Source: Sulfobacillus thermosulfidooxidans
GTDB lineage: Bacteria; Bacillota; Sulfobacillia; Sulfobacillales; Sulfobacillaceae
Reading direction: 5' to 3'
DNA: 64,000 nt
NCBI RefSeq assembly: GCF_001280565.1
Contig: NZ_LGRO01000001.1
Location: 2,480,001 to 2,544,000, forward strand
The notes under the pieces: generated by a model
Databases searched by the model: none
Seen by the model: only the letters and a program-made list of their open reading frames with translations
What the model was told of the DNA's origin: nothing
Made by a program: the position numbers and the translations under genes
In this document: piece by piece, positions 1 through 54,471 of the stretch
Layout of the letters: each line of letters begins with the position of its first letter
Numbering within the stretch: position 1 is the first letter of the stretch

Positions 1-894
1 GAACTCGTGGATGCCCAAAGCCGTTATGAGAGCCAGGGAGTTCATAAGGTGCCGGCGCGACTGATGGCCGCGGTCATTCCCAACATGGCGGCGTCTCAAA
101 TTGCGATGCAATATCATTTGCATGGTCCCCAATTGACGCTCAGCACAGCGTGTGCCTCAAGCATTGATAGCATAGGTCTGGCGACGTCACTCATTACATC
201 CGGGGCCATAGATGTGGCCATTTGTGGAGGAATGGAAAACCTTCTCACTCCCGTGGTGAGTGCGAGTTTATGGCATGCCCATGCGTTGTCACAAGCTGAG
301 CGAGCAAACGAAGCCTCCATGCCCTTTGATCAACACCGCACCGGTTTCGTCATGGGCGAAGGAGCCGCCGTCGTGATCATTGAATCATTAATCCATGCTA
401 AGGCCCGTAAGGCGCCCATCTTGGCGTATGTTCATGGCTATAGCTCGTTGGCTGATGCCTATCATGTGACAGCACCCGAGCCGTCAGGAATATGGGAAGC
501 GATGGCAATGGAACGCGCTTTAAAATCGTGTGGTTTTTCACCTTCGGATATTGATCTGGTGATGGCTCACGGAACTAGTACCCCCGTTGGCGACCGGGCC
601 GAAATTCGAGCCTTAAATCAAGTGTATGCGCACGCCGACCCCGTTGTTACCTCGATTAAGGGGCATATTGGCCATAGTATGGGAGCATCCGGCGCCATGT
701 CGGTAATTGCCACGGTTAAAGCGATGCATGAAGGCCGGATTCCTGAGACTTTAGGGACCCGGGAGCTCGATGAGGAGGTTAACTTTGATGTGGTGTTACA
801 TGAGCCCCGGGCCAAGACGGTTAAGACCGCGCAAGTGAATGCGTTTGGATTTGGTGGCCAAAATGCTTCGCTAATCATTGCGAGTTTTAGCTAA
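1..894 (+). CDS. Beta-ketoacyl-ACP synthase (KAS II/FabF type), 5'-truncated by the window edge
   Basis: This is the C-terminal part of a condensing enzyme that extends acyl-ACP with malonyl-ACP in fatty acid or polyketide synthesis. The frame is open to base 1, so the GTG at 7 is probably internal; about 295 residues are visible against roughly 410 for the family. The nucleophile Cys lies in STACASS (about residue 49 of the visible part), and the two catalytic histidines lie in MAHGTST (about 188) and KGHIGHSMG (about 220), so the Cys-His-His triad is complete. A glycine-rich FGFGGQNAS tail closes the domain. It converges with the CoA-ligase operon, with 14 bases between the two stops. It may elongate the unusual starter made by that operon, which is inference. 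Confidence 0.9.
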   Translation, partial: ELVDAQSRYESQGVHKVPARLMAAVIPNMAASQIAMQYHLHGPQLTLSTACASSIDSIGLATSLITSGAIDVAICGGMENLLTPVVSASLWHAHALSQAERANEASMPFDQHRTGFVMGEGAAVVIIESLIHAKARKAPILAYVHGYSSLADAYHVTAPEPSGIWEAMAMERALKSCGFSPSDIDLVMAHGTSTPVGDRAEIRALNQVYAHADPVVTSIKGHIGHSMGASGAMSVIATVKAMHEGRIPETLGTRELDEEVNFDVVLHEPRAKTVKTAQVNAFGFGGQNASLIIASFS

Positions 895-908
895 AATGAT
901 TTGTTTCC

Positions 909-2510
909 TTAATCGTAACGATGCGGCATCTCTTTAGGTGCGCCATCATGGATCCATTCACGCAGCCGAAACTTTTGGATTTTCCCACTGGGGGTTTTGG
1001 GCATTTCGTCAATAATCTCGAGGCGTTCGGGCCAAAATTGCTTGGTTAACCGGCAGCGGTCGAGATAGCTGGTGAGTTCTGCCAAACTCAAATGCGCTCC
1101 GGGTTGCAAAACCACGACAGCACAGGCCCGTTGGCCGAGACGGGGGTCGGGAACGCCCACGAGTGCGGCTTCTTTGATGGCAGGATGGCGATATAATAAT
1201 TCTTCGACATCCGCAATGGGAATTTTTTCACCACCACGGTTAATCATATCGCGGGCGCGTCCGGTAATACGAATATACCCCTCGTCATCCATGATGGCGA
1301 GATCGCCTGTTCGAAGCCATCCTCCCGGTTTAAATAGATTTTGCGTCGTCTCAGGGTCATCGAAGTACCCCAGAAAGTTTTGGGGTCCTTTGACTTCCAA
1401 CTCCCCTTCTGTTCCTGGCGGTACAATTTCCCCTGCTTCGTCGACAATGCGGCAAGACATGTGGGGCACAGGCCGCCCATCGGTCGTATAGGTCTTCTCC
1501 AATTCGTCTTCAGGCCGAACCAGTGTCACTAAGGAATTTTCTGACATGCCCCACCCGGCCAAAACATGGACGCCAAGCTGGGTGTGGGCTTTTTCTACCA
1601 AAATTCGGGGAATGGGGGCACCCGCACTGATAAAAATCTTTAAGGCTGACAAGTCATGTTGACCGGGATGATAACGGCTCGTTAAGTCACTCAAAAATGG
1701 GGTTGCTCCCATCGAAAAGGTGACGCGCCAGCGGGAGAGCAACGAGAGGGCCACGTCGGGATCCCAAATATCTTGATAAACCGCGGGGATTCCTAGAAGA
1801 AGAGGAAATAAGACGCCATAGAGGAATCCTGTTTGATGGGCAAAGGGGGATGGCATGAAAATGACGTCGCCATCACCTAAATGCAAAAAATCCTTTTGCA
1901 ATAAAAGGCCCGTCAACAACGTTCTATGCGAGTGCATGACCCCTTTAGGACGACCGGTTGTGCCCGAAGTGAAGACGATTTCCGCTAAGTCATCTATCGC
2001 GGGCAGACTAAGAGGAACGTCCTTGGCATTTTTATGTTGATCGAGAACTTGTTCAAGTGCCGGAAAATCTTGTCCATCCCGCATCCAAATGGTGAGATGA
2101 GGAAATTCATCAGCCAAATGCTGCGCCATTTCGGTGAATGTCAAGTGGCGAAAACTCTTGGGCACCACCAACAGTTTGGCATGAGTCTTTTGGAGAATTT
2201 GCCGCACTTCATGTTCGCGGAAAATGGGCATAATAGGGCAAATCACGGCTCCTAATTGCCATGTGGCGACGGTTAAGGCGACAAATTCCCAGTTATTCGG
2301 TAATTGCACCGCGACCACATCGTGTGCTCTGATTCCGGCATGATACAAGGCCGAGGTGGCCGCTGTAACCCGCTCGGCGAAGGTTTCGTAGGTCCATATG
2401 ATTTCATCACGTTCTAAACTGTGGTCCACCAGATATAAGGTGCCGGGTTTGGTGTGCACCCACTTATCAAAGTATTGGGGAATGACTTGAAAATCTTGTT
2501 GCTGATTCAT
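909..2510 (-). CDS. AMP-forming acyl-CoA synthetase (ligase 2 of the cluster)
   Basis: An ANL-superfamily enzyme that activates a carboxylic acid with ATP and joins it to CoA. The AMP-binding loop FTSGTTGRPKG is near residue 180, followed by GWGMSE, GWLRTGD and a C-terminal PSGKIQK with the catalytic lysine near residue 510. I chose the ATG ending at 2510, since AAAGGCGGTG lies just upstream; an in-frame start 11 codons earlier lacks a site. It is the last gene of a minus-strand run starting at 9549. The substrate cannot be read from the sequence. The best guess from context is a cyclic or medium-chain acid such as a cyclohexane or cyclohexene carboxylate. Confidence 0.88.
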   Translation of the reverse strand: MNQQQDFQVIPQYFDKWVHTKPGTLYLVDHSLERDEIIWTYETFAERVTAATSALYHAGIRAHDVVAVQLPNNWEFVALTVATWQLGAVICPIMPIFREHEVRQILQKTHAKLLVVPKSFRHLTFTEMAQHLADEFPHLTIWMRDGQDFPALEQVLDQHKNAKDVPLSLPAIDDLAEIVFTSGTTGRPKGVMHSHRTLLTGLLLQKDFLHLGDGDVIFMPSPFAHQTGFLYGVLFPLLLGIPAVYQDIWDPDVALSLLSRWRVTFSMGATPFLSDLTSRYHPGQHDLSALKIFISAGAPIPRILVEKAHTQLGVHVLAGWGMSENSLVTLVRPEDELEKTYTTDGRPVPHMSCRIVDEAGEIVPPGTEGELEVKGPQNFLGYFDDPETTQNLFKPGGWLRTGDLAIMDDEGYIRITGRARDMINRGGEKIPIADVEELLYRHPAIKEAALVGVPDPRLGQRACAVVVLQPGAHLSLAELTSYLDRCRLTKQFWPERLEIIDEMPKTPSGKIQKFRLREWIHDGAPKEMPHRYD

Positions 2511-2577
2511 AAATTCACCGCCTTTGGAATTTTTGACTCTCACTCAACTGGACTGCCTTGATAATCTGAAAATACGA

Positions 2578-2628: not shown

Positions 2629-3435
2629 CTACTCAGGAGAAATGGCATCATAGCCGGGAGGTGTTAAGGTTAAACCTCCATCGACCACAATGGTCTGCCC
2701 GGTAATATAGCGGGCATGATCCGTCGCTAATAACATAATGGCGTCGGCAATGTCTTCAGGACGGGCTAGTTGCCCTAAAGGTGTTTGCCGACTCACATCA
2801 TCGTGAAAGGATTGCACGGTGTCTTGAGCATAAAAAGTGACCGAGTCCGTATCCACGACTCCTGGTGATAGGGCATTGCATGTAATATGAAAAGGACCGA
2901 GTTCCATGGCGATGTATCGCACTAAGCTTTCTAAGGCAGCCTTGCTGGTTCCTAAACTCGCATAGCGCGGAAGGGCAAATCGAGACCCCATACTGCTAAT
3001 GACAATAATACGGCCGCCATGGGGATTATCTTCCATGAGAGGGCGGCATCGCTGTGCGGCTTTGAGAATGCTGGTGACAACCACATGGAATGTGCGGTCA
3101 AAATGATAAGGCGTCAAAGACTCAAGGGGTTTGAATGCGGTAGCGGCGGCATTTCCAATGAAAACGTCTAAATGTCCCCAACGTTCGGTAATCACATCAA
3201 AGAGCTGGTCAATCTCCTCGATATTTTCTAAATCCGCGCGGAAAGCAATGGCGTCACGACCCATGGTGCGAATTTGATCGACAACCGCTTCGGCACTTTG
3301 GCGATCACGGCGGTAATGGACAATCACGTCAGCCCCCGCCTCAGCCATTGCCAAGGCGGTGGCGCGGCCAATGCCGCGGGAACTTCCCGTAATACAAACT
3401 TTTTTTCCGGTGAAATCAATTTCTTTAAAGGGCAT
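2629..3435 (-). CDS. SDR-family oxidoreductase, FabL/ChcA-like enoyl-thioester reductase
   Basis: A short-chain dehydrogenase/reductase of 268 residues from the ATG ending at 3435, preceded by AAAGGATGG; the TTG two codons earlier is less likely. The nucleotide site is GSSRGIG near residue 15. The active site reads YASLGTSK, Tyr and Lys spaced seven apart (about 158 and 165). This Y-x6-K spacing is typical of enoyl reductases such as FabL, not the Y-x3-K of ketoreductases. Other FabL-like stretches are LDVFIGNAA and GQTIVVDGG. ChcA, the cyclohexenylcarbonyl-CoA reductase of Streptomyces, is also an SDR enoyl reductase. In this operon reduction of cyclohexenyl-CoA intermediates is the likely role; a plain FabL is the alternative. 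Confidence 0.85.
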   Translation of the reverse strand: MPFKEIDFTGKKVCITGSSRGIGRATALAMAEAGADVIVHYRRDRQSAEAVVDQIRTMGRDAIAFRADLENIEEIDQLFDVITERWGHLDVFIGNAAATAFKPLESLTPYHFDRTFHVVVTSILKAAQRCRPLMEDNPHGGRIIVISSMGSRFALPRYASLGTSKAALESLVRYIAMELGPFHITCNALSPGVVDTDSVTFYAQDTVQSFHDDVSRQTPLGQLARPEDIADAIMLLATDHARYITGQTIVVDGGLTLTPPGYDAISPE

Positions 3436-3535
3436 GAACAATCCATCCTTTCTCTGAGAAAAATAAGAGGAATAAGATAACTAACTAACCCACAATGAGA
3501 AACCAAATAGAAAACTAATCCCATCATGCACCATA

Positions 3536-5497
3536 CTAGGGGCCTTCCTTCACCTGTCCTAAGAGTTGTGCAGCCCAATAACCTTGACGAAAGGAATGCT
3601 TAGCATCAATCGTGGCAGGGTTGTTGGCCGCGCCAATGCTGAGTGTGAGAATATGAGACGGAAGGGAGTAAGGCCAAGGATTGGGGATAGATCCCGCACA
3701 TAAAATAATCTGGTCCGCGTCAACATCGTGGAATTTCCCCAGTGGTTCTTCGTAACGGATTCCTTTATCGGTCACCGCTAACGATTGAAAGGGACCGACG
3801 ACGTGAACCCCTAAGGCCCGTAATTCTCGGATCCAAATCCACCGTGTCGAAGGTCCCAAACTTCGCCCTAATATGCCCGAACGGCTTAATAAGGTGATGG
3901 GGCCATGGTGATGATGCGCGGTAAATATGGCGACATCAATCCCTACGCCTCCTGATCCCACAATGACGACATGACGACTAAGCGGACGTTTTCCTTTTAG
4001 GATGTCAATAAATGAGACGACACGCTCATCAGTGATGGGAGCAAATGATGGCCACTGGGGTTGGGATCCTGTCGCTTGAACGACTACATCAAAATTTAAC
4101 AAGGTGGCTTCATCGGGGGTGGTGCTGGTACGGATCAAGACGCCCAGTCGGTCAAGTTCGGCTTGGTAATAGTCGAGAGTATAGTGAAAGTCTTGCTTGC
4201 CGGGAATTTTTGCGGCGAGTGCCAGTTGCCCTCCAATTTCATCGTGTTGTTCAAATAGAACTACCTCGTGACCGAGTTCGCGGGCCCGGCGACTCACTTC
4301 AAGTCCTGCGGGACCGCTGCCGACCACAGCAATGCGCTTTACGCGAGATACTTTATGGATGGGTCGATTTTCATGACTACAGCGCGGATTAACAAGACAA
4401 GACACGGGTTTCGGATTTTTGGCCAGCACGTGATCCAAACAGGCTTGGTTACATGCGACGCATACATTTAAACGATGAGGGACTAATCCTCGCACTTTAT
4501 TCCCAAATTGAGGATCGGCCAACCAAGGACGAGCTGCACTAATCACGTCCACTGAACCGTTGTTCAGTACGTGGTGAATAATCTCCCGCGTATTGAGGCG
4601 ATTAGCGCCCATAATGGGAATGGTGACGGCATGTCGAAGGGCCCAGTAAACGGCTTGGAATGCCCCTTGAGGCACGATAGCAGCGACAGTAGGGACAGAG
4701 GATTCATGCCAACCTACGCCGACGTTAAGGGCATGAACACCAGAATCTTGCAACGCCTTGGCGAACCGGATGGTTGCGGTTGAAGGAGTGCCGTCTTCAA
4801 TAAAATCTTCTCCGGATATGCGGTAGATTACGGCAATTTTGTCCCCAACCGCATCGACAATACCCTGAGCGACGGCTAATGGGAAACGTTGCCGGCGTAT
4901 TTCATCGCCACCAAAGGCATCGTCGCGGCGATTGGTGAAAGGCGCTAAAAATTCATTGAGAAGATATCCCTCTGATCCCATGATTTCGATGGCATCAAAT
5001 CCGGCATCATACGCTTGGCGTGCCGCATGCACAAAGGCGTCCAGGGTGCGTTCAATGTCTTCCACTGTCATACTCTGTGGAGTATTTCGCGTCATCGAGC
5101 AATATACGGAGCTTGGAGCGAGAGGTTTTAGTCCCGTTTCCGCCTCTTTCGCATAGCGACCGGCATGAAAGAGCTGCACGCCCACTAGTCCGTGACAGCG
5201 GTGGATGCGTTCGACAAGCTCAGCCAACATAGCCACATGGTCTGAATCATAAAAGCCGAGCATGTCTTGACCTCCACCCTCTTGGGTGACGGCAACACCA
5301 CCCAAGGTAATAAGAGCGGCACCGCCACGGATACGTTCCCCATAGAAGGTTCCTAAACGGTCCAGAAACTGCCGGTGTCCTTCGAGTCCCAAATGCATAG
5401 ATCCCATGACAAGGCGATGGGGTAACACTAAGGGTCCAATAGTCAGAGGCTGGTTTATGATGGCAAGGGGATCGAATCCCGTGGGACTGGTGGTCAT
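3536..5497 (-). CDS. NADH:flavin oxidoreductase, 2,4-dienoyl-CoA reductase (FadH)-like
   Basis: A 653-residue multidomain flavoenzyme with the FadH layout. An Old Yellow Enzyme TIM barrel with FMN (residues about 1-340) comes first. A 4Fe-4S motif follows, CxxCxxxC plus a later Cys in SCLVNPRC (about 347-371). An FAD/NAD(P) module begins at VVGSGPAGLE (about 390), with a second nucleotide fold at VIVGSGGVGID. The family reduces conjugated 2,4-dienoyl-CoA thioesters. The start overlaps the stop of the acyl-CoA dehydrogenase by four bases (ATGA), indicating translational coupling. In a pathway from shikimate it could remove one ring double bond from a cyclohexadienyl thioester. Confidence 0.9.
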   Translation of the reverse strand: MTTSPTGFDPLAIINQPLTIGPLVLPHRLVMGSMHLGLEGHRQFLDRLGTFYGERIRGGAALITLGGVAVTQEGGGQDMLGFYDSDHVAMLAELVERIHRCHGLVGVQLFHAGRYAKEAETGLKPLAPSSVYCSMTRNTPQSMTVEDIERTLDAFVHAARQAYDAGFDAIEIMGSEGYLLNEFLAPFTNRRDDAFGGDEIRRQRFPLAVAQGIVDAVGDKIAVIYRISGEDFIEDGTPSTATIRFAKALQDSGVHALNVGVGWHESSVPTVAAIVPQGAFQAVYWALRHAVTIPIMGANRLNTREIIHHVLNNGSVDVISAARPWLADPQFGNKVRGLVPHRLNVCVACNQACLDHVLAKNPKPVSCLVNPRCSHENRPIHKVSRVKRIAVVGSGPAGLEVSRRARELGHEVVLFEQHDEIGGQLALAAKIPGKQDFHYTLDYYQAELDRLGVLIRTSTTPDEATLLNFDVVVQATGSQPQWPSFAPITDERVVSFIDILKGKRPLSRHVVIVGSGGVGIDVAIFTAHHHHGPITLLSRSGILGRSLGPSTRWIWIRELRALGVHVVGPFQSLAVTDKGIRYEEPLGKFHDVDADQIILCAGSIPNPWPYSLPSHILTLSIGAANNPATIDAKHSFRQGYWAAQLLGQVKEGP

Positions 5498-6654
5498 GGC
5501 TTCGCATTCTCCGTCGCCGGCAGGGGTGAAGACAAGAGAGCCTTGGCAATCGTCACTTTTTGGATTTCGGCTGTTCCTTCTTCAAAGCGTTGAGCCCGGG
5601 CATCGCGGTAAATTCGTTCGATTTCAGATCCTTGAAAATATCCTCCACCCCCGTGAATTTGTAAGGCGAGATCGGTCACGCGTTGCAACATTTGACTCCC
5701 AAATAGTTTCGCCATCGAGGATTCGGCGGGCGCATGGTGATGCGTTTGCCACTTTTTAGCCGCATATAATGTCAGTTGGCGCGCTGCGGTAATATCTGTG
5801 GCCATGTCGGCGAGCCATTCTCGAATGACAGGCCGACTAATCAAGGGTTTTCCAAAAGTCACCCGTTCGTGAGCACGGGCTACAGCCAAGTCCCATGCTC
5901 TTTGCGCCAGTCCCACGCAGGTCATGGCAATTCCTATCCGGCTTGGCTCCAAAAATCCTTGAAAGGCAATGTCAAGGCCCTCTCCCTCTTCACCTAACCG
6001 ACACGAGACGTCAACAGGACAATCGTTCAAAATCAAATGGGCATGGCCGGTGCCGCGCAATCCCATGGCAGGTGGCATCGGTTCTACTATGAGACGGGGC
6101 GTATTGCGCGGCACCATGAGGGCAATAGTACCATGATCGCCTTGGGATTTTGCCAAGCGAGCAAACAATAGATACCAATCGGCCGTATCGCCAAAGGTGA
6201 TGAGCCATTTTTCTCCAGAGACGTAATAGGTATTGCCATCTTTGTAACATGTGGTTTGTATGTCGGTGCCGGTTCCGGCGTTCGGCTCGGTTAAGGTAAA
6301 GGCGACGACAATGTCGCCGGCAACTTGAGCCCGCACGAACCGTTCAACTTGTTCTTTAGTAGCCCGTCTGGCCAAAGCCCGCCAGATCCCATTATTTACA
6401 TGGACGATCATCCGTAAAGATCCATGCATTTGCGAAAATAGTTCTAAAAGCTGCAAATACTGGATGAAATCGAGACCTATTCCTCCATATTCCTGAGGTG
6501 CTGCCAGACGCAAGAATCCCTCTTGGCGCAATTCTTGCCATATTTCAGGACCGCACGTTCCTAAATCCTCGATATCGCGTGCCAACTCTGGAGCCCGGTG
6601 AAAGACGAAGTGACGAACCTGTTGGGACAACTGTTCATAATCTGCAGAATGCAT
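5494..6654 (-). CDS. Acyl-CoA dehydrogenase
   Basis: A 386-residue flavoprotein of normal family length that oxidises an acyl-CoA at the alpha-beta position, or may run in reverse or as an isomerising step in a biosynthetic setting. Visible family features are FTLTEPNAGTGTD in the middle beta domain, GERVTFGKPL-like ERVTFGKPLI, and the C-terminal RFEEGTAEIQK. The second Glu there (about 359) sits at the catalytic base position. An AAGGAGA site precedes the ATG. It starts five bases after ligase 1 ends and overlaps the next gene by four bases, so it is firmly inside the operon. Confidence 0.9.
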   Translation of the reverse strand: MHSADYEQLSQQVRHFVFHRAPELARDIEDLGTCGPEIWQELRQEGFLRLAAPQEYGGIGLDFIQYLQLLELFSQMHGSLRMIVHVNNGIWRALARRATKEQVERFVRAQVAGDIVVAFTLTEPNAGTGTDIQTTCYKDGNTYYVSGEKWLITFGDTADWYLLFARLAKSQGDHGTIALMVPRNTPRLIVEPMPPAMGLRGTGHAHLILNDCPVDVSCRLGEEGEGLDIAFQGFLEPSRIGIAMTCVGLAQRAWDLAVARAHERVTFGKPLISRPVIREWLADMATDITAARQLTLYAAKKWQTHHHAPAESSMAKLFGSQMLQRVTDLALQIHGGGGYFQGSEIERIYRDARAQRFEEGTAEIQKVTIAKALLSSPLPATENAKP

Positions 6655-6659
6655 TGTTC

Positions 6660-8204
6660 TTAATCTCCTTTAGTCGACAGAGTGTCTGTGAATTGTTGCT
6701 TAAGCACATATTTTTGAATCTTGCCGCTGGCTGTGCGAGGTAAGGATTCTAATAGCCAGAGACGTTCTGGCCAGTAGATTTTGGCAATCCCCTTGTCCCT
6801 TAAAAACTCGGTAACTTCTTCTAAAGACAATGTGCTGTGGGGCTCAATGACACATGCCAAGCCAATGCGTTCTCCCAAACGCGGGTCAGAAATGCCAAAC
6901 AACGCAGCATCCACGATTTTGGGGTGAGTATACAACATGTCTTCAAGGACTTTTACCGGAATCTTCTCTCCGCCCCGGTTAATTGCGTCCTGAACACGTC
7001 CAGTGAGATGCAAAAATCCCTCGGCATCCAGGTATGCCATATCGCCAGTATCAAAAAATCCTTCGTCGTTGAGCTTTCGCGTTCGTTCTTCAGGCTGGTT
7101 CAGGTAGGTGACAAAGGTGTAAGGTGTTTTCACATGTAAACGTCCTTCTTCCCCAGCTGCCCGGATGCGTCCTTGATCATCAACAATACGAAGATGGGTG
7201 CCGGGTAAGGGTTTTCCGTCGGTTTGCCAGCCTTTTTCGGGAGGATCTTCCGGTGTGGATACCGTTGCCAAACAGCACTCGGTGGAACCCCAAGCGCCTG
7301 ACACATGGCACTGAAGGCGCTGGCGGGCTTGCGCGGCTAATTCTCGAGGAACCGGAGCCCCTGTCACAATAAAATAGCGTAGGGAGGAGATTGTTGGAGT
7401 GACATCTAACACATCTCGAAGAAATGGGAGAGCCGCCTGAATAAATCGGGGCTGGAAGCGTCTCATGATCTCTTTGATGTGAAGGGGATCCCAGCAGGCT
7501 TGATAAATCGCCGCACTGCCTAAATACCATGCTAACATCATGCCATAGAGAAACCCTGTTTGATGGGCAAGGGGGCTGGGAACCCAAACGGTATCATCAG
7601 CCCCAAGATGAAGGGAATCGGTGTGCGCTTGAAGGGCCTGAGCCAATGTTCGGTGAGTGTGAACGACACCTTTGGGAACCCCGGTGGTACCAGATGTGAA
7701 TAGAATTTGGGCAGGAGAGTCGCTTTCCCAACGAAGGTCGGTCAGAGGAGCGCGATGGGCTAGTCCACCAAAATCGTGCCAAATTTGCCCTTTCTTTTCT
7801 GGATCGAGAAAAATTTGCTGCACATGAGGCAATTCAGCAAAAGCTACCTGGTAAAGTTTTTGGTAATCCGTTTTGCGCCATGTTTTCCATGCGATGACAC
7901 AACGTGTCTTTGTTGTTTGGGCGATGAAGTGCAGTTCGTGGCGATTCAGTTGTGGCAGGACAGGACAAGGAATGGCACCGATGTTCCACAATGCTAAGGT
8001 TAAAACTGCAAACTCACGGTGGTTGGGCAACTGGTACATCACGACATCGCCCGCTTGGATTTCTCGGCACAAGAGTCCTTGGGAAACTTCCTTGGCCCAT
8101 TGTCGTAGTTGACCATAGGAAAGAGGGTGCTCCGTATCCGGGGAATAAATAGCGGGTCGTTCGTCAGGGACTTGATTAAGGCGTTCCGGCACAATCATCA
8201 ACAT
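6660..8204 (-). CDS. AMP-forming acyl-CoA synthetase (ligase 1 of the cluster)
   Basis: A second ANL acyl-CoA ligase of about 514 residues, related to ligase 2 at 909-2510 but clearly diverged. It has FTSGTTGVPKG (about residue 168), GAWGSTE, GFFDTGD and ASGKIQK with the catalytic Lys near 495. The chosen ATG follows AAGGAGG closely; an upstream in-frame TTG has no such site. Its start lies inside the end of the EPSP-synthase-like gene (about 29 bases of overlap), so the two are probably coupled. Two ligases in one operon suggest two different acids, or two stages of one pathway, are activated. Confidence 0.88.
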   Translation of the reverse strand: MLMIVPERLNQVPDERPAIYSPDTEHPLSYGQLRQWAKEVSQGLLCREIQAGDVVMYQLPNHREFAVLTLALWNIGAIPCPVLPQLNRHELHFIAQTTKTRCVIAWKTWRKTDYQKLYQVAFAELPHVQQIFLDPEKKGQIWHDFGGLAHRAPLTDLRWESDSPAQILFTSGTTGVPKGVVHTHRTLAQALQAHTDSLHLGADDTVWVPSPLAHQTGFLYGMMLAWYLGSAAIYQACWDPLHIKEIMRRFQPRFIQAALPFLRDVLDVTPTISSLRYFIVTGAPVPRELAAQARQRLQCHVSGAWGSTECCLATVSTPEDPPEKGWQTDGKPLPGTHLRIVDDQGRIRAAGEEGRLHVKTPYTFVTYLNQPEERTRKLNDEGFFDTGDMAYLDAEGFLHLTGRVQDAINRGGEKIPVKVLEDMLYTHPKIVDAALFGISDPRLGERIGLACVIEPHSTLSLEEVTEFLRDKGIAKIYWPERLWLLESLPRTASGKIQKYVLKQQFTDTLSTKGD

Positions 8205-9549
8205 TTTGCCTCCTTGTGGATTGCAGATCCTCCCCAATAGAGTCTCTGAAGGTATCTGTAAAATCTTCGTCCACGACGTTGGCCTGAAGGCCTAAAGACT
8301 GCATCACATCAAGAAATTGAGGATAAGAAATGCGGTAGGCATACCCATGCGAAATCCGTGAAGGAGCATCGGCGTGACTAGCCGCTAAAGCCAATGCCAT
8401 TAATACCCGATGATCATTGAAAGACGATAACTCGGTTCGATGAAGCCTTTTACCTCCATGAATGACCAGGGTGTTGCCGATTTCTTCAATATGTGCACCC
8501 ATTTTTCTTAGCTGCAACATGGCTAATACGCGGTTCGATTCTTTATGCCGATTTGATTCGATGTCGGTGATGACGCTGCGACCGGAAGCTGCCGCTGCTA
8601 AAACAGCCAATACTGGAAGCAGATCGGGTGTATCGCGGACACTAACCGAAAAGGGTCGGATGTGTCCGTCGGATTCAGCCCATAAAGTGTCGGTTGCATC
8701 ATGTCTGTGAAGTTTGAGGCCAATGTCCTCTAATAATTTAATAATGGTGCCTTCGGGATGATCTTGGGAGTCGCGGTAGGAGTGAATTTGAAGGCTTCCC
8801 CCATGTAAGGCGAGAAAAGCGAGTGGAAACGCCAGTGACGAAAAATCTGGCGGTGCCTGGTAATCCCTGGCTTTAAGACTCTGAGGGGCAATGATGAACT
8901 CATGGCGCTCCCAATCAACAGAACCTTTTAAACCGAACAGGGTCATCATGCGCCATGTCAATTGCACATAAGGTTCTTCCGCAACGGGCGGCGAGATGCG
9001 TAAAGATGTGGGCCTTGAAGCAAACGGTGATACCAGAAGAAGACTCGATGCCCACTGACTTAACAGTCCAGGAATGGTAATGTCTCCACCTTTTGGGGCA
9101 CCTGGAAGGATGGTTACGGGCAATGAATAACCACGGGATTGCCAGGCAATGCCATATCGTGAGAAGGCTTGGAGTAGAGGTTTGAGGGGACGCCGACTTA
9201 AATTGGGCGAACCGATCATGGTGAGGGGATGAGGCGAGAGGGAGCACAGAGCGAGAAGAAATTGAGCGGTGGAACCGGAACTGCCAACTCTCACATAACC
9301 TCTTGGGGGAGAAAACGCTTGCCCCTTAACGTGATACCCCTCTGACACGTTGTCTATGGGGATCCCCAAATCTCGTAGAGCTCTTAAGGTATGGCGAACG
9401 TGTAAGGCAGTTGATGAACCGGAAATGACGGAGTGCCCGTGACTAAGTGCTGCGAGAATTAAGGCACGGTGTAAATGATATTTTGACGGAGGAACATCTA
9501 GGGATCCGGTGACTTCAGTGTGTAATGGGTTAACCCGTAACCAATGCAT
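8176..9549 (-). CDS. EPSP-synthase-like enolpyruvyltransferase-family protein, divergent
   Basis: A 457-residue protein with the fold signatures of 5-enolpyruvylshikimate-3-phosphate synthase. Retained are PPSKYHLHR (Lys23 and Arg28, matching K22 and R27 of the E. coli enzyme), RRPLKPL (R124), HKESNR (K340, R344) and NDHR (H385, R386). From memory of the E. coli enzyme, Ser23 is Tyr here, Arg100 is Gln and Lys411 is Ile. It is the first gene of a CoA-ligase/dehydrogenase operon and has no shikimate-pathway neighbour. EPSPS homologues occur in cyclohexanecarboxyl-CoA cassettes, where they are proposed to eliminate a shikimate hydroxyl. AAGGGGG precedes the ATG. It could still be the housekeeping AroA, but the changes make that less likely. 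Confidence 0.8.
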   Translation of the reverse strand: MHWLRVNPLHTEVTGSLDVPPSKYHLHRALILAALSHGHSVISGSSTALHVRHTLRALRDLGIPIDNVSEGYHVKGQAFSPPRGYVRVGSSGSTAQFLLALCSLSPHPLTMIGSPNLSRRPLKPLLQAFSRYGIAWQSRGYSLPVTILPGAPKGGDITIPGLLSQWASSLLLVSPFASRPTSLRISPPVAEEPYVQLTWRMMTLFGLKGSVDWERHEFIIAPQSLKARDYQAPPDFSSLAFPLAFLALHGGSLQIHSYRDSQDHPEGTIIKLLEDIGLKLHRHDATDTLWAESDGHIRPFSVSVRDTPDLLPVLAVLAAAASGRSVITDIESNRHKESNRVLAMLQLRKMGAHIEEIGNTLVIHGGKRLHRTELSSFNDHRVLMALALAASHADAPSRISHGYAYRISYPQFLDVMQSLGLQANVVDEDFTDTFRDSIGEDLQSTRRQNVDDCAGTP

Positions 9550-27870: not shown

Positions 27871-29073
27871 TCATGCTTTGGGGGGAAAGTCTGGGTCACG
27901 TGGTTTAAAACAGATTTTAATCGGTTCCCGGCCTTGGTTCTCCAAGGTGGCGAAAGCGTTTTGATAATCATCCAAGAAAAATGTGTGGGTGATGAGTTGT
28001 TCAATGGGAATAGTTGTCGTATGTAAGAGGTTTAAGGCCTGATTAAAGGTTTGGTCAGGGTTGGGACCATAGCCATACGTGCCATAAAAGGTAATGTCTT
28101 TAGACCATATCGGCGTGAAATCCCATTTCATCTCATTAGCGGCCCCTAACAGCAAGATTTGGCCTCCTGGGCGCACGCAGCTGATGGCTCCTTGTAAGGA
28201 GGATGAAGATCCGGCAGCATCAATCACGAGATCGAACCCGCGGGGACGCCACGAGGGAGTATGCCAAATGTGGGGATAGGGTGTTCCGGTGATTTCCGTT
28301 AAAGCGGGAGCGCTGAGATTAGAAACAACTTCAGCACCGAGCCGTTTTGCCCACTTTTGTTGGTGAGGATAACGGGCAACAGCCATGACCAAATCGTGGG
28401 TTAGATCCTTTTCTTGCAGCGCAAATAGAGTGAGAAGTCCAATGGTGCCGGAACCAATGACTAAAACGCGATGCACTGAAGACCATTCAATGTGGGACAA
28501 TCCATAAAGAACAATGCTTAAGGGTTCAGTCAAAACAGCCCGTTCTGGTTTCATCTCCGAAGGAACTTGGTAAACCTGATGAGAAGGAACCCACATCCGT
28601 TCGGCAAATCCGCCGGGAAAATGAGTATGAAATCCCATGAGTAGACCGATGTCGTGCTGGCCGCGGTAATAACAAAGATCGGGACGACCTTTACGGCAGG
28701 CGGGGCAGGGATTCTTTAATGCTAACGACGTACAGGATAAGGCGGGGTTGACGACAACCACCGTCCCCTTCGACCACTGAGGAGAGTCTTCGACAACACG
28801 TCCTACCACTTCATGACCTAAGACAGCCGGAAATTTTGTCAAAGGCGCTAAATAAGGAGAGCTATGTCCCAGAATCAATCCCCGATCTGATCCACAAATA
28901 CCCGCTAATAATGGGGCTATCTCCACATGAGGAGTCGATCTCGTCCAAGAAGGCTTCATCACCTCTTCGTAGTGAAGAGTACTCATGGCACCCCATGAGC
29001 GTGTCCTAGGGATCAGTTTCTGCCGTAATACATGCGGCCACGATAAATGATAATGAAGACCCATCACCGTCAT
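27871..29073 (-). CDS. Zinc-dependent alcohol dehydrogenase (MDR family)
   Basis: A 400-residue medium-chain dehydrogenase. Catalytic zinc ligands are the Cys in GICGSD and the His-Glu in GHEVVGRV. The structural-zinc loop CPACRKGRPDLC keeps three of four usual Cys, with another Cys nearby. The nucleotide site is VIGSGTIGLL. The start overlaps the upstream aldolase stop by four bases, so the two work as a pair. Oxidation or reduction of a sugar alcohol or related polyol is plausible from the pairing with a class II aldolase. About 30 residues precede the usual family start, so ATG at codon 4 is also possible. Confidence 0.85.
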   Translation of the reverse strand: MTVMGLHYHLSWPHVLRQKLIPRTRSWGAMSTLHYEEVMKPSWTRSTPHVEIAPLLAGICGSDRGLILGHSSPYLAPLTKFPAVLGHEVVGRVVEDSPQWSKGTVVVVNPALSCTSLALKNPCPACRKGRPDLCYYRGQHDIGLLMGFHTHFPGGFAERMWVPSHQVYQVPSEMKPERAVLTEPLSIVLYGLSHIEWSSVHRVLVIGSGTIGLLTLFALQEKDLTHDLVMAVARYPHQQKWAKRLGAEVVSNLSAPALTEITGTPYPHIWHTPSWRPRGFDLVIDAAGSSSSLQGAISCVRPGGQILLLGAANEMKWDFTPIWSKDITFYGTYGYGPNPDQTFNQALNLLHTTTIPIEQLITHTFFLDDYQNAFATLENQGREPIKICFKPRDPDFPPKA

Positions 29074-30191
29074 TGCATCGGAACCTGCCGAACCACACGG
29101 TCATGAACGCGGGCTAAAATTTCTTCGGGGCTATCACCGGTAATCGTTAAGCCGTGATTTTTTAATCCGATGACTGCATGGGCGGGATCATCGGCTGCTG
29201 CAAGCTGTTTAGCCACCTCATCCGCCAATTCTTTACTACCACAAGGATAGTTAAATTCTGTGGCCAAAACGCCTGGCATCCAGGCATGAATATGGATAAT
29301 CGCACCGATTTCAGGATGTTGTTGATAAATCTTCCAATGCTCAATCGCATCGACTGAGACACGCCGTGGTGTCACTGTTTCGGGAACACTTAAGTGAATA
29401 CTTTCGTCTTCAGCATCGAATCCCGTTACCAGAAGAATATCTCGGCCGATGTCATGGAGTCGGCTTTTATCCACTCCACTTGCGCTCATCCAAAAACTGT
29501 CATCGTCGTGCCGAACGCTGAGATTGCCATAACTCAGCCCACCAATACCGAACAGGCGACGCACATGGGCCATATCTTCGGGGGTGAGATATTCGTCCAT
29601 GGGGAAAGGGGCCGGAAGTAGATCCCAACTCTCGAGAATTTCTCCGGCATAAGATAGGCTATGGGTTTGTCGTGTGCCGTTCCACAAAGAGGGCCGTAAG
29701 TCAGGATGAAAGCGATTGCGGATTATGAGGTGACTGCGCATTAATGGCGCAATGCGCTCAGTGAGTTTCTGGTAACGTTGTTCAACACTATCATCTTGCG
29801 ATGACAGCAATACAGCACCTCGTTCCAGCGTTGTAATGACGAAAGAGGGATTATCGAGAGAGCCTGCGACCACAATGAGGATATTGGATAGAGACCGGAT
29901 ATGAATGGGATAAAATTGCTTCAAAAGATCGCGATGCGGATCGAGAGATGAAACAAAAGCCACACCTATGACATAAACGGCGTAATGCTGACGACGAAAC
30001 GGACGCGTCTTATCGCTCACGAGTTGGAACACGACATTGGCATTTTCGACTTGTGAGCTCAAAGTGAAACCGGCCTCAACAAGACTGTGTACTAAGCGGA
30101 TTTGAAAATCTGTGGCGGTGCGATTTTCTTGAAACGACGGGGCGAACCAAAACTGATTCAAACACGTCACACTCCTTGGAGGATAGGTCAT
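29070..30191 (-). CDS. Class II aldolase/adducin-domain protein with N-terminal extension
   Basis: A 373-residue protein whose C-terminal half (about 190-370) is a class II aldolase domain: GNLSVR, ASGVDKSRL, the metal pair in IHIHAW, and LKNHGLTITG with a further His. Fuculose- or ribulose-phosphate aldolases and epimerases share this fold. The first 190 residues are an extra domain I do not recognise. The ribosome binding site is weak. It is first in a two-gene operon with the zinc dehydrogenase. Confidence 0.78.
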   Translation of the reverse strand: MTYPPRSVTCLNQFWFAPSFQENRTATDFQIRLVHSLVEAGFTLSSQVENANVVFQLVSDKTRPFRRQHYAVYVIGVAFVSSLDPHRDLLKQFYPIHIRSLSNILIVVAGSLDNPSFVITTLERGAVLLSSQDDSVEQRYQKLTERIAPLMRSHLIIRNRFHPDLRPSLWNGTRQTHSLSYAGEILESWDLLPAPFPMDEYLTPEDMAHVRRLFGIGGLSYGNLSVRHDDDSFWMSASGVDKSRLHDIGRDILLVTGFDAEDESIHLSVPETVTPRRVSVDAIEHWKIYQQHPEIGAIIHIHAWMPGVLATEFNYPCGSKELADEVAKQLAAADDPAHAVIGLKNHGLTITGDSPEEILARVHDRVVRQVPMQ

Positions 30192-51504: not shown

Positions 51505-54447
51505 TTAAGGAAATGTCGGACCCAAAGGGCCTAAGTCGCCTGGATGCAGGTGGAGGGTTTTTTGGGTCACGTCAATATCCATGCCTAGGAGCACTTGCAA
51601 GAGCAAAAACGGAGCCCCTGCTGCCCAAGCTTGAGGACTGCAGGCGGCGGGGTAGGGATAGGGCCCAAAGGGAGCCGGTTCGCCCGAAAACAGTTCAGGC
51701 AAGCGGCCATAAGGGAATTGACTGGCGGCTTGAAGGAGACTCCAAGAGAGCATGTGGGCTTCTGGCCATAGGCCATAATGGGAGAGCCCTTTGGCAATGA
51801 GCGCGGTATCATGAGGCCATATGCTGCCCCGGTGATAGCTGTACGGATCATAGGTGAGGGCGTCCGAGGATAGGGTGCGAATTCCCCATCCGGAATATAA
51901 AACCGGTGACATTAAAATCTTAGCGACATCCAGGCTCCGTGAATGGGGCACAATACCCGTCCACAGACATTGTCCGGCATCGGAGGTTAAAACGTCTAAC
52001 GGACGGCCACTATGGTCCAGGGCTAAAGCATAATAACTTTTTTCGTCTAACCAATAGCGTTTATGAAACTGGCGTTTGAGCTGTTTGGCCCGTTTTAGCA
52101 ATTCTTGAGCTTTGGGAGACTGGTCTGTTGATTGGTAATATTGGCTCATTAAGATCAGGGCCCGGTAGGCATATCCTTGCACCTCACTCACTGCCAAAGG
52201 AGGAATGGCATGTTCTCCGGTGCTGTACACCATTGAATCAAAGGAATCTTTCCATGATTGAATAACGAGTCCATGATCAACATGGTTCTGGAAGGAAAAT
52301 AAGCCGGTTTGGGAGTCTTGGGCTCCAAGAAGCCAATTCAGCGCTTTTTCAGCTGCCGGCATTAAGTCCGCCATCATGTGGTGATTGCCCGTTCGTTTCC
52401 ACGTTTCCATAAGCAATATTAAAAACAGCGGCGTGACATCCACCGAACCATAATAACGGGCAAAGGGCACTTGGCGACTCCGAGCCATTTCTCCCAGACG
52501 GATTTCATGAATCATTTTTCCAGGCTCTTCTTCAGTCGTGGGATCGACCTTTTTGCCTTGCCAGGCGGCTAAAGTGTATAACGTGTTTTGTGCAATGACA
52601 GGATTCCACAGTAAATATTGATAGGACGCGATGATCGCGTCGCGGCCAAAAAATGTGCCAAACCAGGGAAGTCCAGCCATAGGCACTGGACCATGGCCAA
52701 AGTCAGTCAAGAGCATGTGATAATCTTGATGGGCTTGGGAGATGACGAGATGCCAGGGATATTCATCGAAAATAAAGTGAGGATCGAGTGTTAGGGGATT
52801 CCTAACCTTCTTAAGACGGGTTTGGGGAATTTCTGGCACCGGGTTGTGCCAGGAAATTCTCAGGGTCAATTCGCCGCATGTTTCTTGAGCATCGATGCAC
52901 CATTTCCAGTCGCCGTCAAGAGCGTGAATCGGACTTTTGTCAGCACTCATGCGGAGCACGCGGGTAATGCCGTCAATGCCTTCATATTCTAAACGGTATT
53001 CTTCATTCTCAGATGCCTTGCGTTTGATGCCGCTTCGGATTTTGGGGGTACCCCGCAATTCGAAAATATCGGTAAAATCAGCATCTATGCTTAATGACAA
53101 GTTCCACGGCTCTAAAGATCCGTAATGCTGCCATTGCCAGTGATCCGTAAAATGGTCGGCATGAAGCGTGAGGCAGCGCTGAAGAACCCGGGTCATCCCA
53201 TCTTGCTGGATGACATAATGCCAGGTCAACGTATTGGCCGTGACATCAAAATGTAAGGGATCGGGTACCTCCTCTCCAATCCGCCACTGGTAGATGGATA
53301 CCATACGCGTATCGTAGCAATAGATACCGTGACGTTTGGATTCCATTTCAATACGCCCCTGGGGCGAGAAGATGGCGAAAGTCGGGCCTGCTTTAAGGAC
53401 AGGTTCTTTAAGATTGGTCCGGGGGGTTTGATAGATGGCCGGAATTCCGGTCGATCCACGAATATTGAGGTGAGGGATGACGCGCACGCTATGAACCGGC
53501 TGACCTTGAATCGAATTAATGAGCATGTTGGCCATTTGATACCCGGCCTCTTTCAGATTGATGTCCATGCTGGAAAGCGGAGAATGCATGTGAAGAGATG
53601 GGGAGAGAGGCTCCAAACTCATAATCGAGAGCTGGCGGGGCACATGAATGCCCAAATCGCCGGCACAGCGCCGGGCTTGTAGTGCCCCATGGCCACTTGT
53701 CACTAATAAAGCAGTGGGGGGAGAAATTTGGGTTAAGAGCTCATAGGTCAGATGATAGCTATCATCCTTCATTTTGTCACGAGCCAGAACATCGTGAGGA
53801 TTAAGATGCGCCTTAACCATGGCCGCCGCATATCCTTGCCGGTACCGTTCAATGTTTGGGGTCAGCTCATCCGGAATGATTAGAGTAATGCGCTGATGGC
53901 CTAAATCGATTAAATATTGTGTCGCAATCCGCGCCGCTTCTTCAAAATCCGTATCGTACGAGAGATGGGGTTCATGATGGGCACCGTAGACCACAAAAGG
54001 CAGGTGATTACGGGTCAAAATATCGCGGTAACGTTCTAGTCCCGGGTCATCAAATAAAATAAGGCCGTCGATGCGTCCCGAGCGGCTTACCTGTTCTAGA
54101 TATGAGACGATGTCGCCTATCGTGGGCGATAGAACCATGACATGGTAACCCTTTTCCTGACAAGCCGCTATCACGCCTTCCATGAGTGTGGGGAAAATGC
54201 CCTCGGGTCCATTCGGAGTGAGCGAGGCGGGCAGCAAAATCCCAATGGTTTCCGATATTCCTCGCACCAATATCCGTCCCCGGACGTTGGGAGCATAATT
54301 TAGTATCCGTGCGGCATCATGCACTTTTTGAATCGTTTCTTGGGAAAAATGCCCTTGATTATTGAGCACATAAGAGACGGTAGCGATAGAAACTCCCGCT
54401 AACTTGGCCACATCGCCAATCCGTGCCCGGCGAGAGGATTGCGACAT
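51505..54447 (-). CDS. LacI-family repressor fused to an amylo-alpha-1,6-glucosidase-like enzyme
   Basis: A 980-residue fusion. Residues about 8-50 are a LacI helix-turn-helix, IGDVAKLAGVSIATVSYVLNN; about 60-340 is the periplasmic-binding-like effector domain. From about 365, a glycogen-debranching N-terminal beta domain is followed by an (alpha/alpha)6 GDE_C-type catalytic domain. Visible signatures are GLPWFGTFFGRDAI, YYGSVDVTPLF, WKDSFDSM, YSYHRGSIWPHD and ACSPQAWAAGAPF. GGAGGG precedes the ATG at 54447. It is divergent from a sugar ABC operon and palindromes lie just upstream, so it may both bind that control region and process the imported sugar. The 3' end is frameshifted (see 51413-51504). 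Confidence 0.9.
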   Translation of the reverse strand: MSQSSRRARIGDVAKLAGVSIATVSYVLNNQGHFSQETIQKVHDAARILNYAPNVRGRILVRGISETIGILLPASLTPNGPEGIFPTLMEGVIAACQEKGYHVMVLSPTIGDIVSYLEQVSRSGRIDGLILFDDPGLERYRDILTRNHLPFVVYGAHHEPHLSYDTDFEEAARIATQYLIDLGHQRITLIIPDELTPNIERYRQGYAAAMVKAHLNPHDVLARDKMKDDSYHLTYELLTQISPPTALLVTSGHGALQARRCAGDLGIHVPRQLSIMSLEPLSPSLHMHSPLSSMDINLKEAGYQMANMLINSIQGQPVHSVRVIPHLNIRGSTGIPAIYQTPRTNLKEPVLKAGPTFAIFSPQGRIEMESKRHGIYCYDTRMVSIYQWRIGEEVPDPLHFDVTANTLTWHYVIQQDGMTRVLQRCLTLHADHFTDHWQWQHYGSLEPWNLSLSIDADFTDIFELRGTPKIRSGIKRKASENEEYRLEYEGIDGITRVLRMSADKSPIHALDGDWKWCIDAQETCGELTLRISWHNPVPEIPQTRLKKVRNPLTLDPHFIFDEYPWHLVISQAHQDYHMLLTDFGHGPVPMAGLPWFGTFFGRDAIIASYQYLLWNPVIAQNTLYTLAAWQGKKVDPTTEEEPGKMIHEIRLGEMARSRQVPFARYYGSVDVTPLFLILLMETWKRTGNHHMMADLMPAAEKALNWLLGAQDSQTGLFSFQNHVDHGLVIQSWKDSFDSMVYSTGEHAIPPLAVSEVQGYAYRALILMSQYYQSTDQSPKAQELLKRAKQLKRQFHKRYWLDEKSYYALALDHSGRPLDVLTSDAGQCLWTGIVPHSRSLDVAKILMSPVLYSGWGIRTLSSDALTYDPYSYHRGSIWPHDTALIAKGLSHYGLWPEAHMLSWSLLQAASQFPYGRLPELFSGEPAPFGPYPYPAACSPQAWAAGAPFLLLQVLLGMDIDVTQKTLHLHPGDLGPLGPTFP

Positions 54448-54471
54448 AAGATCCCTCCACAAACAGTTAAA

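Follow-up and report, generated by a model that had tools for sequence, protein, structure and literature searches.

A paralogue of EPSP synthase as candidate entry enzyme of the route from shikimate to cyclohexanecarboxyl-CoA in Sulfobacillus

We analyzed a stretch of 64,000 nucleotides of the Sulfobacillus thermosulfidooxidans genome (assembly GCF_001280565.1, contig NZ_LGRO01000001.1, positions 2,480,001 to 2,544,000; hereafter the window), which carries at positions 8176–9549 a gene related to aroA, the gene for 5-enolpyruvylshikimate-3-phosphate (EPSP) synthase (EPSPS). The open reading frame (ORF) is intact, with an ATG start and no internal stops, and the 457-residue protein that it encodes matches Pfam family PF00275 with 237 bits and reaches 277.8 bits against the NCBIfam aroA model TIGR01356, under the cut-off of 287.25. 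The closest solved structures are EPSP synthases, and an AlphaFold2 (AF2) model of the protein (mean predicted local distance difference test score 90.5), which is in a closed EPSPS-like state, aligned with Escherichia coli EPSPS (1g6s) over 415 residues with a Z score of 49.2 and a root-mean-square deviation of 2.0; the top-ranked chains were all EPSPS. The source genome (3.83 Mb, 3 contigs) contains 4 PF00275 genes, the other 3 being 2 murA-type genes and an ordinary aroA that adjoins ORFs resembling DAHP (3-deoxy-D-arabino-heptulosonate 7-phosphate) synthase and TyrA (neighbours named by eye). The window gene is therefore a paralogue of EPSPS, separate from the genome's own aroA. A preliminary description of this DNA had called the gene an EPSPS paralogue with an altered active site and had proposed a search for a second, canonical aroA; such a gene is present, and the ORF, the PF00275 match, and the residue alignment presented below bear the description out. 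Plasmid records gave 64 matches, all below 60% identity, and among the 30 matches listed those with an annotated gene were AroA or AroA fusions.

The EPSPS-like gene is followed on the same strand by genes for an acyl-coenzyme A (CoA) ligase (ligase 1), an acyl-CoA dehydrogenase, a flavoprotein of the old yellow enzyme (OYE) type, a short-chain dehydrogenase/reductase (SDR), and a second ligase (Table 1). Ligase 1 is listed with a TTG start at 8237, but an in-frame ATG at 8204 behind an AGGAGG motif (8214–8209) is the likelier start, and with that start the first 29 bases of the gene would lie within the 3' end of the EPSPS-like gene. Because ligase 1 probably starts within the EPSPS-like gene and the OYE and acyl-CoA dehydrogenase genes share 4 bases, the genes from the EPSPS-like gene through the second ligase look like a single operon with the EPSPS-like gene first. 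The best NCBIfam match of ligase 1 is TIGR03208, cyclohexanecarboxylate-CoA ligase, with 369.9 bits, far under the cut-off of 792.3. The SDR, which is 63% identical to the SDR of a similar gene cassette in Alicyclobacillus mengziensis, is proposed as the counterpart of ChcA, 1-cyclohexenylcarbonyl-CoA reductase. The window thus has together all components of a cassette for cyclohexanecarboxyl-CoA (CHC-CoA): EPSPS-like protein, CoA ligase, acyl-CoA dehydrogenase, OYE, and SDR.

Table 1. Features of the window at and beside the EPSPS-like gene.
Feature	Positions	Strand	Basis and remarks
EPSP-synthase paralogue, candidate shikimate 1,4-dehydratase (entry enzyme)	8176..9549	-	457 aa, PF00275
Acyl-CoA ligase 1	6660..8237	-	AMP-binding (Pfam); adjoins EPSPS-like gene
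Acyl-CoA dehydrogenase family protein	5494..6654	-	Pfam and NCBIfam
OYE / 2,4-dienoyl-CoA-reductase-type flavoprotein	3536..5497	-	Oxidored_FMN and Pyr_redox_2
SDR, FabL-like enoyl reductase	2629..3441	-	Top NCBIfam FabL, 256.6 bits, under cut-off 328
Second acyl-CoA ligase	909..2543	-	Top NCBIfam TIGR03208, 532.3 bits, under cut-off 792.3
FabF-type ketoacyl synthase, 3' part	7..894	+	Adjoins operon; 406 aa read beyond window start (L039)

A scan of a contig collection covering 84,980 species with a four-row alignment returned 22 loci, 3 of which are the contigs of G003, G004, and G010 found earlier. All 22 have the genes for the EPSPS-like protein, the ligase, and the acyl-CoA dehydrogenase next to one another, and the homologues of the window acyl-CoA dehydrogenase in these cassettes are 54% to 65% identical to it. 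Hosts of similar cassettes include A. mengziensis, Cohnella, Paenibacillus, Sporolactobacillus, Actinomycetota, and large Streptomyces-like genomes. The OYE-type flavoprotein is also conserved among relatives: OYE and SDR are both found in 13 of 17 loci of other Bacillota, and the 16 actinobacterial loci have the SDR in 13 cases and the OYE in 8. Paenibacillus glycinis has two complete cassettes in one genome (L049 and L064). Whole-genome searches among 34 genomes of the source family found the paralogue in 4, the same 4 that carry the core acyl-CoA dehydrogenase of the cassette. With a clean separation of profile scores, it occurs in 1/199 genomes of a sample of the source phylum (769 versus 284.7 bits), 5/396 Actinomycetota (at least 486 versus at most 239.4), 5/41 Alicyclobacillaceae (at least 657.9 versus 290.4), and, at 12 loci, 10/394 large actinobacterial genomes that are probably Streptomycetaceae (at least 547.6 versus 276.8). 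A second, lower-scoring AroA-type match is present in all 5 carriers among the Alicyclobacillaceae. A maximum-likelihood tree with 73 rows places 39 paralogues on one side of a branch with 100/100 support, outside ordinary AroA; the count of 39 excludes 3 long-branched proteins (L038, L041, and L042) that grouped within this clade.

The EPSPS-like protein and the ligase are joined in one open frame without a stop in 16 of 41 loci (a set in which some loci are one contig counted twice), namely in all 12 Streptomyces-like loci and in 4 loci of Bacillota metagenome-assembled genomes (L051, L054, L055, and L059). Because both proteins are fused in frame in these relatives, the product of the EPSPS-like protein is probably the substrate of the ligase, a free acid. 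The fused and actinobacterial cassettes (L051, L052, L054, L055, L059, L126–L128, and L142–L153) have ligases that best match the second ligase of the window, and one fused Streptomyces-like locus (L151) runs on into modular polyketide synthase domains.

To describe the active site we use E. coli EPSPS numbering, the second number of a pair referring to the 457-residue window protein, and counts over 39 aligned members of the paralogue clade, 23 AroA rows, and 4 rows of a sister clade, leaving out L072 and L083, which are labelled AroA and grouped with MurA in the tree. The preliminary description had listed 7 residues as kept (Lys22=K23, Arg27=R28, Arg124=R120, Lys340=K336, Arg344=R340, His385=H380, and Arg386=R381) and 3 as changed (Ser23=Y24, Arg100=Q96, and Lys411=I407), and the alignment agrees with all 10. 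Three further changes, absent from that description, are Ser169=L163, Phe172=W166, and Ser197=E191. The substitutions S23Y, S169L, F172W, and S197E are each found in 39/39 paralogues, and position 100 is Gln in 22 and Tyr in 17 of them; such a recurrent pattern is no accident. In the AroA rows, position 23 is Ser (21) or Asn (2), position 169 is Ser (23), position 172 is Val (12), Phe (8), or Tyr (3), position 197 is Thr (11), Ser (11), or Gln (1), and position 100 is Arg (23). The shikimate-3-phosphate (S3P)-side signature of AroA, Ser23, Ser169, and Ser197, is thus replaced throughout the clade by Tyr, Leu, and Glu. Ser169 and Ser197 are presumably the residues that hold or neighbour the 3-phosphate of S3P in EPSPS. 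The set on the phosphoenolpyruvate (PEP) and catalytic side (Lys22, Arg124, Asp313, Glu341, Arg344, His385, and Arg386) is present in 39/39, as are Arg27, Lys340, and, like Lys340 on the S3P side, Ser170. Lys22, Arg124, and Lys411 are assigned to the PEP/glyphosate site in PMC3411725, and according to a docking study (PMC10305266) the residues that the co-crystallised ligand touches include Ser23, Arg27, Asp313, and Lys340, with Arg124, Glu341, His385, Arg344, and Arg386 as further contributors; the accessible portions of PMC8983318 and PMC3371024 gave no match for the residue contacts. Ile in place of Lys411, which had been offered as evidence for a changed reaction, was rejected as a marker because 11 of 23 ordinary AroA rows, including the AroA of the source genome itself, have Ile there. 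By the alignment, S23Y and S169L are diagnostic of the clade and S197E is partly so, since Glu is found also in 4/4 rows of the sister clade (L107–L110), which weakens it as a unique marker. As read from these rows, substitutions have altered the shikimate-phosphate side of the site, and the PEP side is unchanged except at position 411.

The sister clade (L107–L110 and L112; wider stretches L299–L304) consists of EPSPS-like proteins with Glu197 and Tyr100 but Ser23. The clade is an orphan paralogue, and its loci that were read lie in unrelated transporter operons: an IclR regulator stands beside a branched-chain-amino-acid-type ABC transporter in L300 and L301, and beside a TRAP-type transporter in L302. 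A further EPSPS-like protein, at 699–2171 of L038 (G003), has Lys22 changed to Val, Ser23 to Ala, Arg124 to Gln, and Gln171 to Pro, and its gene adjoins ORFs resembling altronate/galactarate dehydratase and SAF/FAA hydrolase.

The EPSPS fold and the kept catalytic residues are also what a second working EPSPS, such as a glyphosate-tolerant spare, would have, and 6/6 other clade members examined (L046, L057, L063, L088, L142, and L054) exceed the cut-off of the TIGR01356 equivalog model with 302.7 to 325.6 bits. We consider such a spare very improbable: the changes S23Y, R100Q/Y, S169L, and S197E separate the clade from the 23 AroA rows, the clade stands on its own at 100/100, and the gene is bound into a CoA-ester cassette that lies apart from the ordinary aroA.

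The route from shikimate to CHC-CoA starts with a 1,4-conjugate elimination, and a conserved cassette with CoA ligase, acyl-CoA dehydrogenase, OYE, and SDR fits this route. We propose, with a probability of about 0.68, that the window protein is a neofunctionalised EPSPS paralogue that would catalyze the entry step from shikimate to CHC-CoA in Sulfobacillus. Since the S3P side of the site is changed and the PEP side is kept, an unphosphorylated substrate is favoured, and PEP use is also possible. In the sequence of steps that we infer, shikimate, most likely unphosphorylated, would be bound in the old S3P pocket and lose its C3 oxygen and a C6 hydrogen in a 1,4-conjugate elimination that leaves a dihydroxycyclohexadiene carboxylate. 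Glu191, which takes the place of EPSPS Ser197 next to the 3-phosphate, could donate a proton to the departing hydroxyl, and Lys23, Asp309, Glu337, or His380 could accept the C6 proton. The adjacent ligase would convert the acid into its CoA ester, the OYE, acyl-CoA dehydrogenase, and SDR would take off the remaining oxygens and double bonds, and the product would likely serve as starter of omega-cyclohexyl fatty acids. The suggestion of the preliminary description, a shikimate-type ligand with a changed reaction, is thus supported in its direction by the cassette context, by the ordinary aroA elsewhere in the genome, and by the DAHP synthase gene beside most core cassettes of the Alicyclobacillaceae (below); its argument from position 411 falls away, and the PEP side is intact in 39/39.

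Two variants of this chemistry have to be weighed. The substrate may be S3P, with phosphate rather than water as the leaving group, much as chorismate synthase performs a 1,4-elimination of phosphate from EPSP; S3P is present in the cell, phosphate leaves easily, and Lys340 and Ser170 are kept in 39/39. We regard this as unlikely, because S169L and S197E, also in 39/39, would delete 2 serines that presumably hold the phosphate and add negative charge, and because no kinase turned up among the ORFs inspected next to the cassettes, where most flanking ORFs have no assigned names. The invariant PEP-side residues (apart from 411, which is Ile in many ordinary AroA too) and the closed, EPSPS-like state of the AF2 model would suit an enzyme that still uses PEP, enolpyruvylating unphosphorylated shikimate or a related acid so that the enolpyruvyl group is eliminated in a later step. 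This we hold to be distinctly unlikely, as there is no enolpyruvyl-ether lyase among the named cassette genes and isotope labelling studies reportedly point to a direct 1,4-elimination from shikimate.

The Alicyclobacillaceae offer a comparison within one family. Of 41 genomes, 24 have the core acyl-CoA dehydrogenase together with SDR, OYE, and ligase 1 (spread over 2 contigs in G1017 and G1040), and in 5 of these 24 cassettes the EPSPS-like gene lies between the OYE and the ligase. In 18 of the 19 cassettes without it (L262–L270, L276, and L278–L285) we found, beside the SDR, a ligase 2, an acyl-CoA dehydrogenase 2, and a Zn-dehydrogenase, identified by Pfam in 4 of the 18 and by tblastn in the others; G1040 is the lone exception. 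Among the EPSPS-like carriers, A. mengziensis has ligase 2 and acyl-CoA dehydrogenase 2 and no Zn-dehydrogenase in the stretch, and the other 4 have no exchanged-module gene in the 18 to 21 kb read (Fisher's test of EPSPS-like gene versus exchanged module, p = 0.0023, ignoring kinship). In 20 of the 24 genomes, G1014 among them, the core acyl-CoA dehydrogenase gene has as its neighbour a gene for DAHP synthase, with which the shikimate pathway begins, so that both versions of the cassette are tied to shikimate supply; no such gene was found in the 17 loci of other Bacillota or the 16 actinobacterial loci. G1014, taken as A. acidocaldarius, belongs to the exchanged group and is without the EPSPS-like gene. 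Handa and Floss are said to have established an initial 1,4-conjugate elimination in A. acidocaldarius; if this holds, another enzyme does it there, and the exchanged module is a candidate alternative entry route from shikimate. A wider scheme, in which an enolpyruvyl transferase drives the dehydration and bacteria have 2 unrelated CHC-CoA entry modules, the EPSPS-like one and the exchanged one of Alicyclobacillus, seems to us rather improbable. Outside the cassette, the window itself has a Zn-dehydrogenase in tandem with a class II aldolase-type ORF (27871–30191), the former only 26% identical to the Zn-dehydrogenase of Alicyclobacillus. At 51505–54462 it also has one ORF of 985 residues in which a LacI-type regulator and a glycogen-debranching-like glycosidase are joined; either the fusion is unusual or a start has been missed.

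Several observations weigh against the proposed entry role. Among the 39 paralogues the terminal branch of the window protein is the longest (1.31), and its function could have drifted; all PEP-side residues examined except 411 are invariant, and a PEP-free enzyme need not keep them; Glu197, shared with the sister clade, is not pathway-specific. The EPSPS-like gene is not needed for cyclohexyl lipids, given G1014, since in A. acidocaldarius the omega-cyclohexane C17 and C19 acids reach about 51% and 33% (PMC3035248). According to PMC4378227, all Sulfobacillus have genes for omega-alicyclic acids, with which our finding of the core acyl-CoA dehydrogenase in 1 of 8 Sulfobacillus genomes disagrees. 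In the part available to us of a lipid survey (PMC8489842, its table columns ordered by their values), most listed Sulfobacillus species are without omega-alicyclic acids: none is given for S. thermotolerans, S. thermosulfidooxidans, S. sibiricus, or S. benefaciens, and omega-cycloheptyl acid is given for S. acidophilus and S. harzensis. The survey, to that extent, fits a patchy cassette in the genus.

The route by which shikimate leads to cyclohexyl lipids goes back to 1972 (De Rosa and coworkers, as given in the reference list of PMC3035248). A literature search whose reach ended before key subscription papers found no paper on its first enzyme, nor the gene content of the Streptomyces cassette; in their accessible parts, PMC10295569 and PMC9730843 name no such gene and PMC8000086 had nothing. 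Our analysis provides a named candidate for this enzyme with a residue signature (Tyr at 23, Leu at 169, and Glu at 197), and a caution: the TIGR01356 profile would assign the name aroA to the relatives scored here, and annotation software probably does the same. The exchanged module, the newest part of the findings, adds a second, unrelated candidate entry module in Alicyclobacillus for side-by-side comparison. CHC-CoA is a useful polyketide starter, for example for doramectin, which S. avermitilis can make without added acid once it has a gene cassette for CHC-CoA (PMC4581413).

Compared with E. coli AroA (EC 2.5.1.19, 1g6s), the window protein shares the fold and K22, D313, E341, H385, and R386, and differs by S23Y, S169L, S197E, R100Q, and F172W, by its separate clade, and by its gene context. 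With the omega-cyclohexyl fatty-acid pathway of Alicyclobacillus the window has in common the core SDR, OYE, ligase 1, and acyl-CoA dehydrogenase 1, whereas 19 of the 24 core cassettes of the Alicyclobacillaceae are without the EPSPS-like gene. In Streptomyces, the CHC-CoA cassettes are ansJKLM-chcA for ansatrienin and plmJK, L, and M with chcA for phoslactomycin, with AnsJ and the fused PlmJK as EPSPS homologues. The window resembles them in its EPSPS-like protein, CoA ligase, acyl-CoA dehydrogenase, OYE, and SDR, and is unlike them in that it belongs to a Sulfobacillus genome, its genes are unfused, the operon includes a second ligase, and no polyketide synthase was seen nearby. The fused EPSPS-ligase of all 12 Streptomyces-like loci, which are the sequences compared here rather than AnsJ itself, matches the arrangement of PlmJK.

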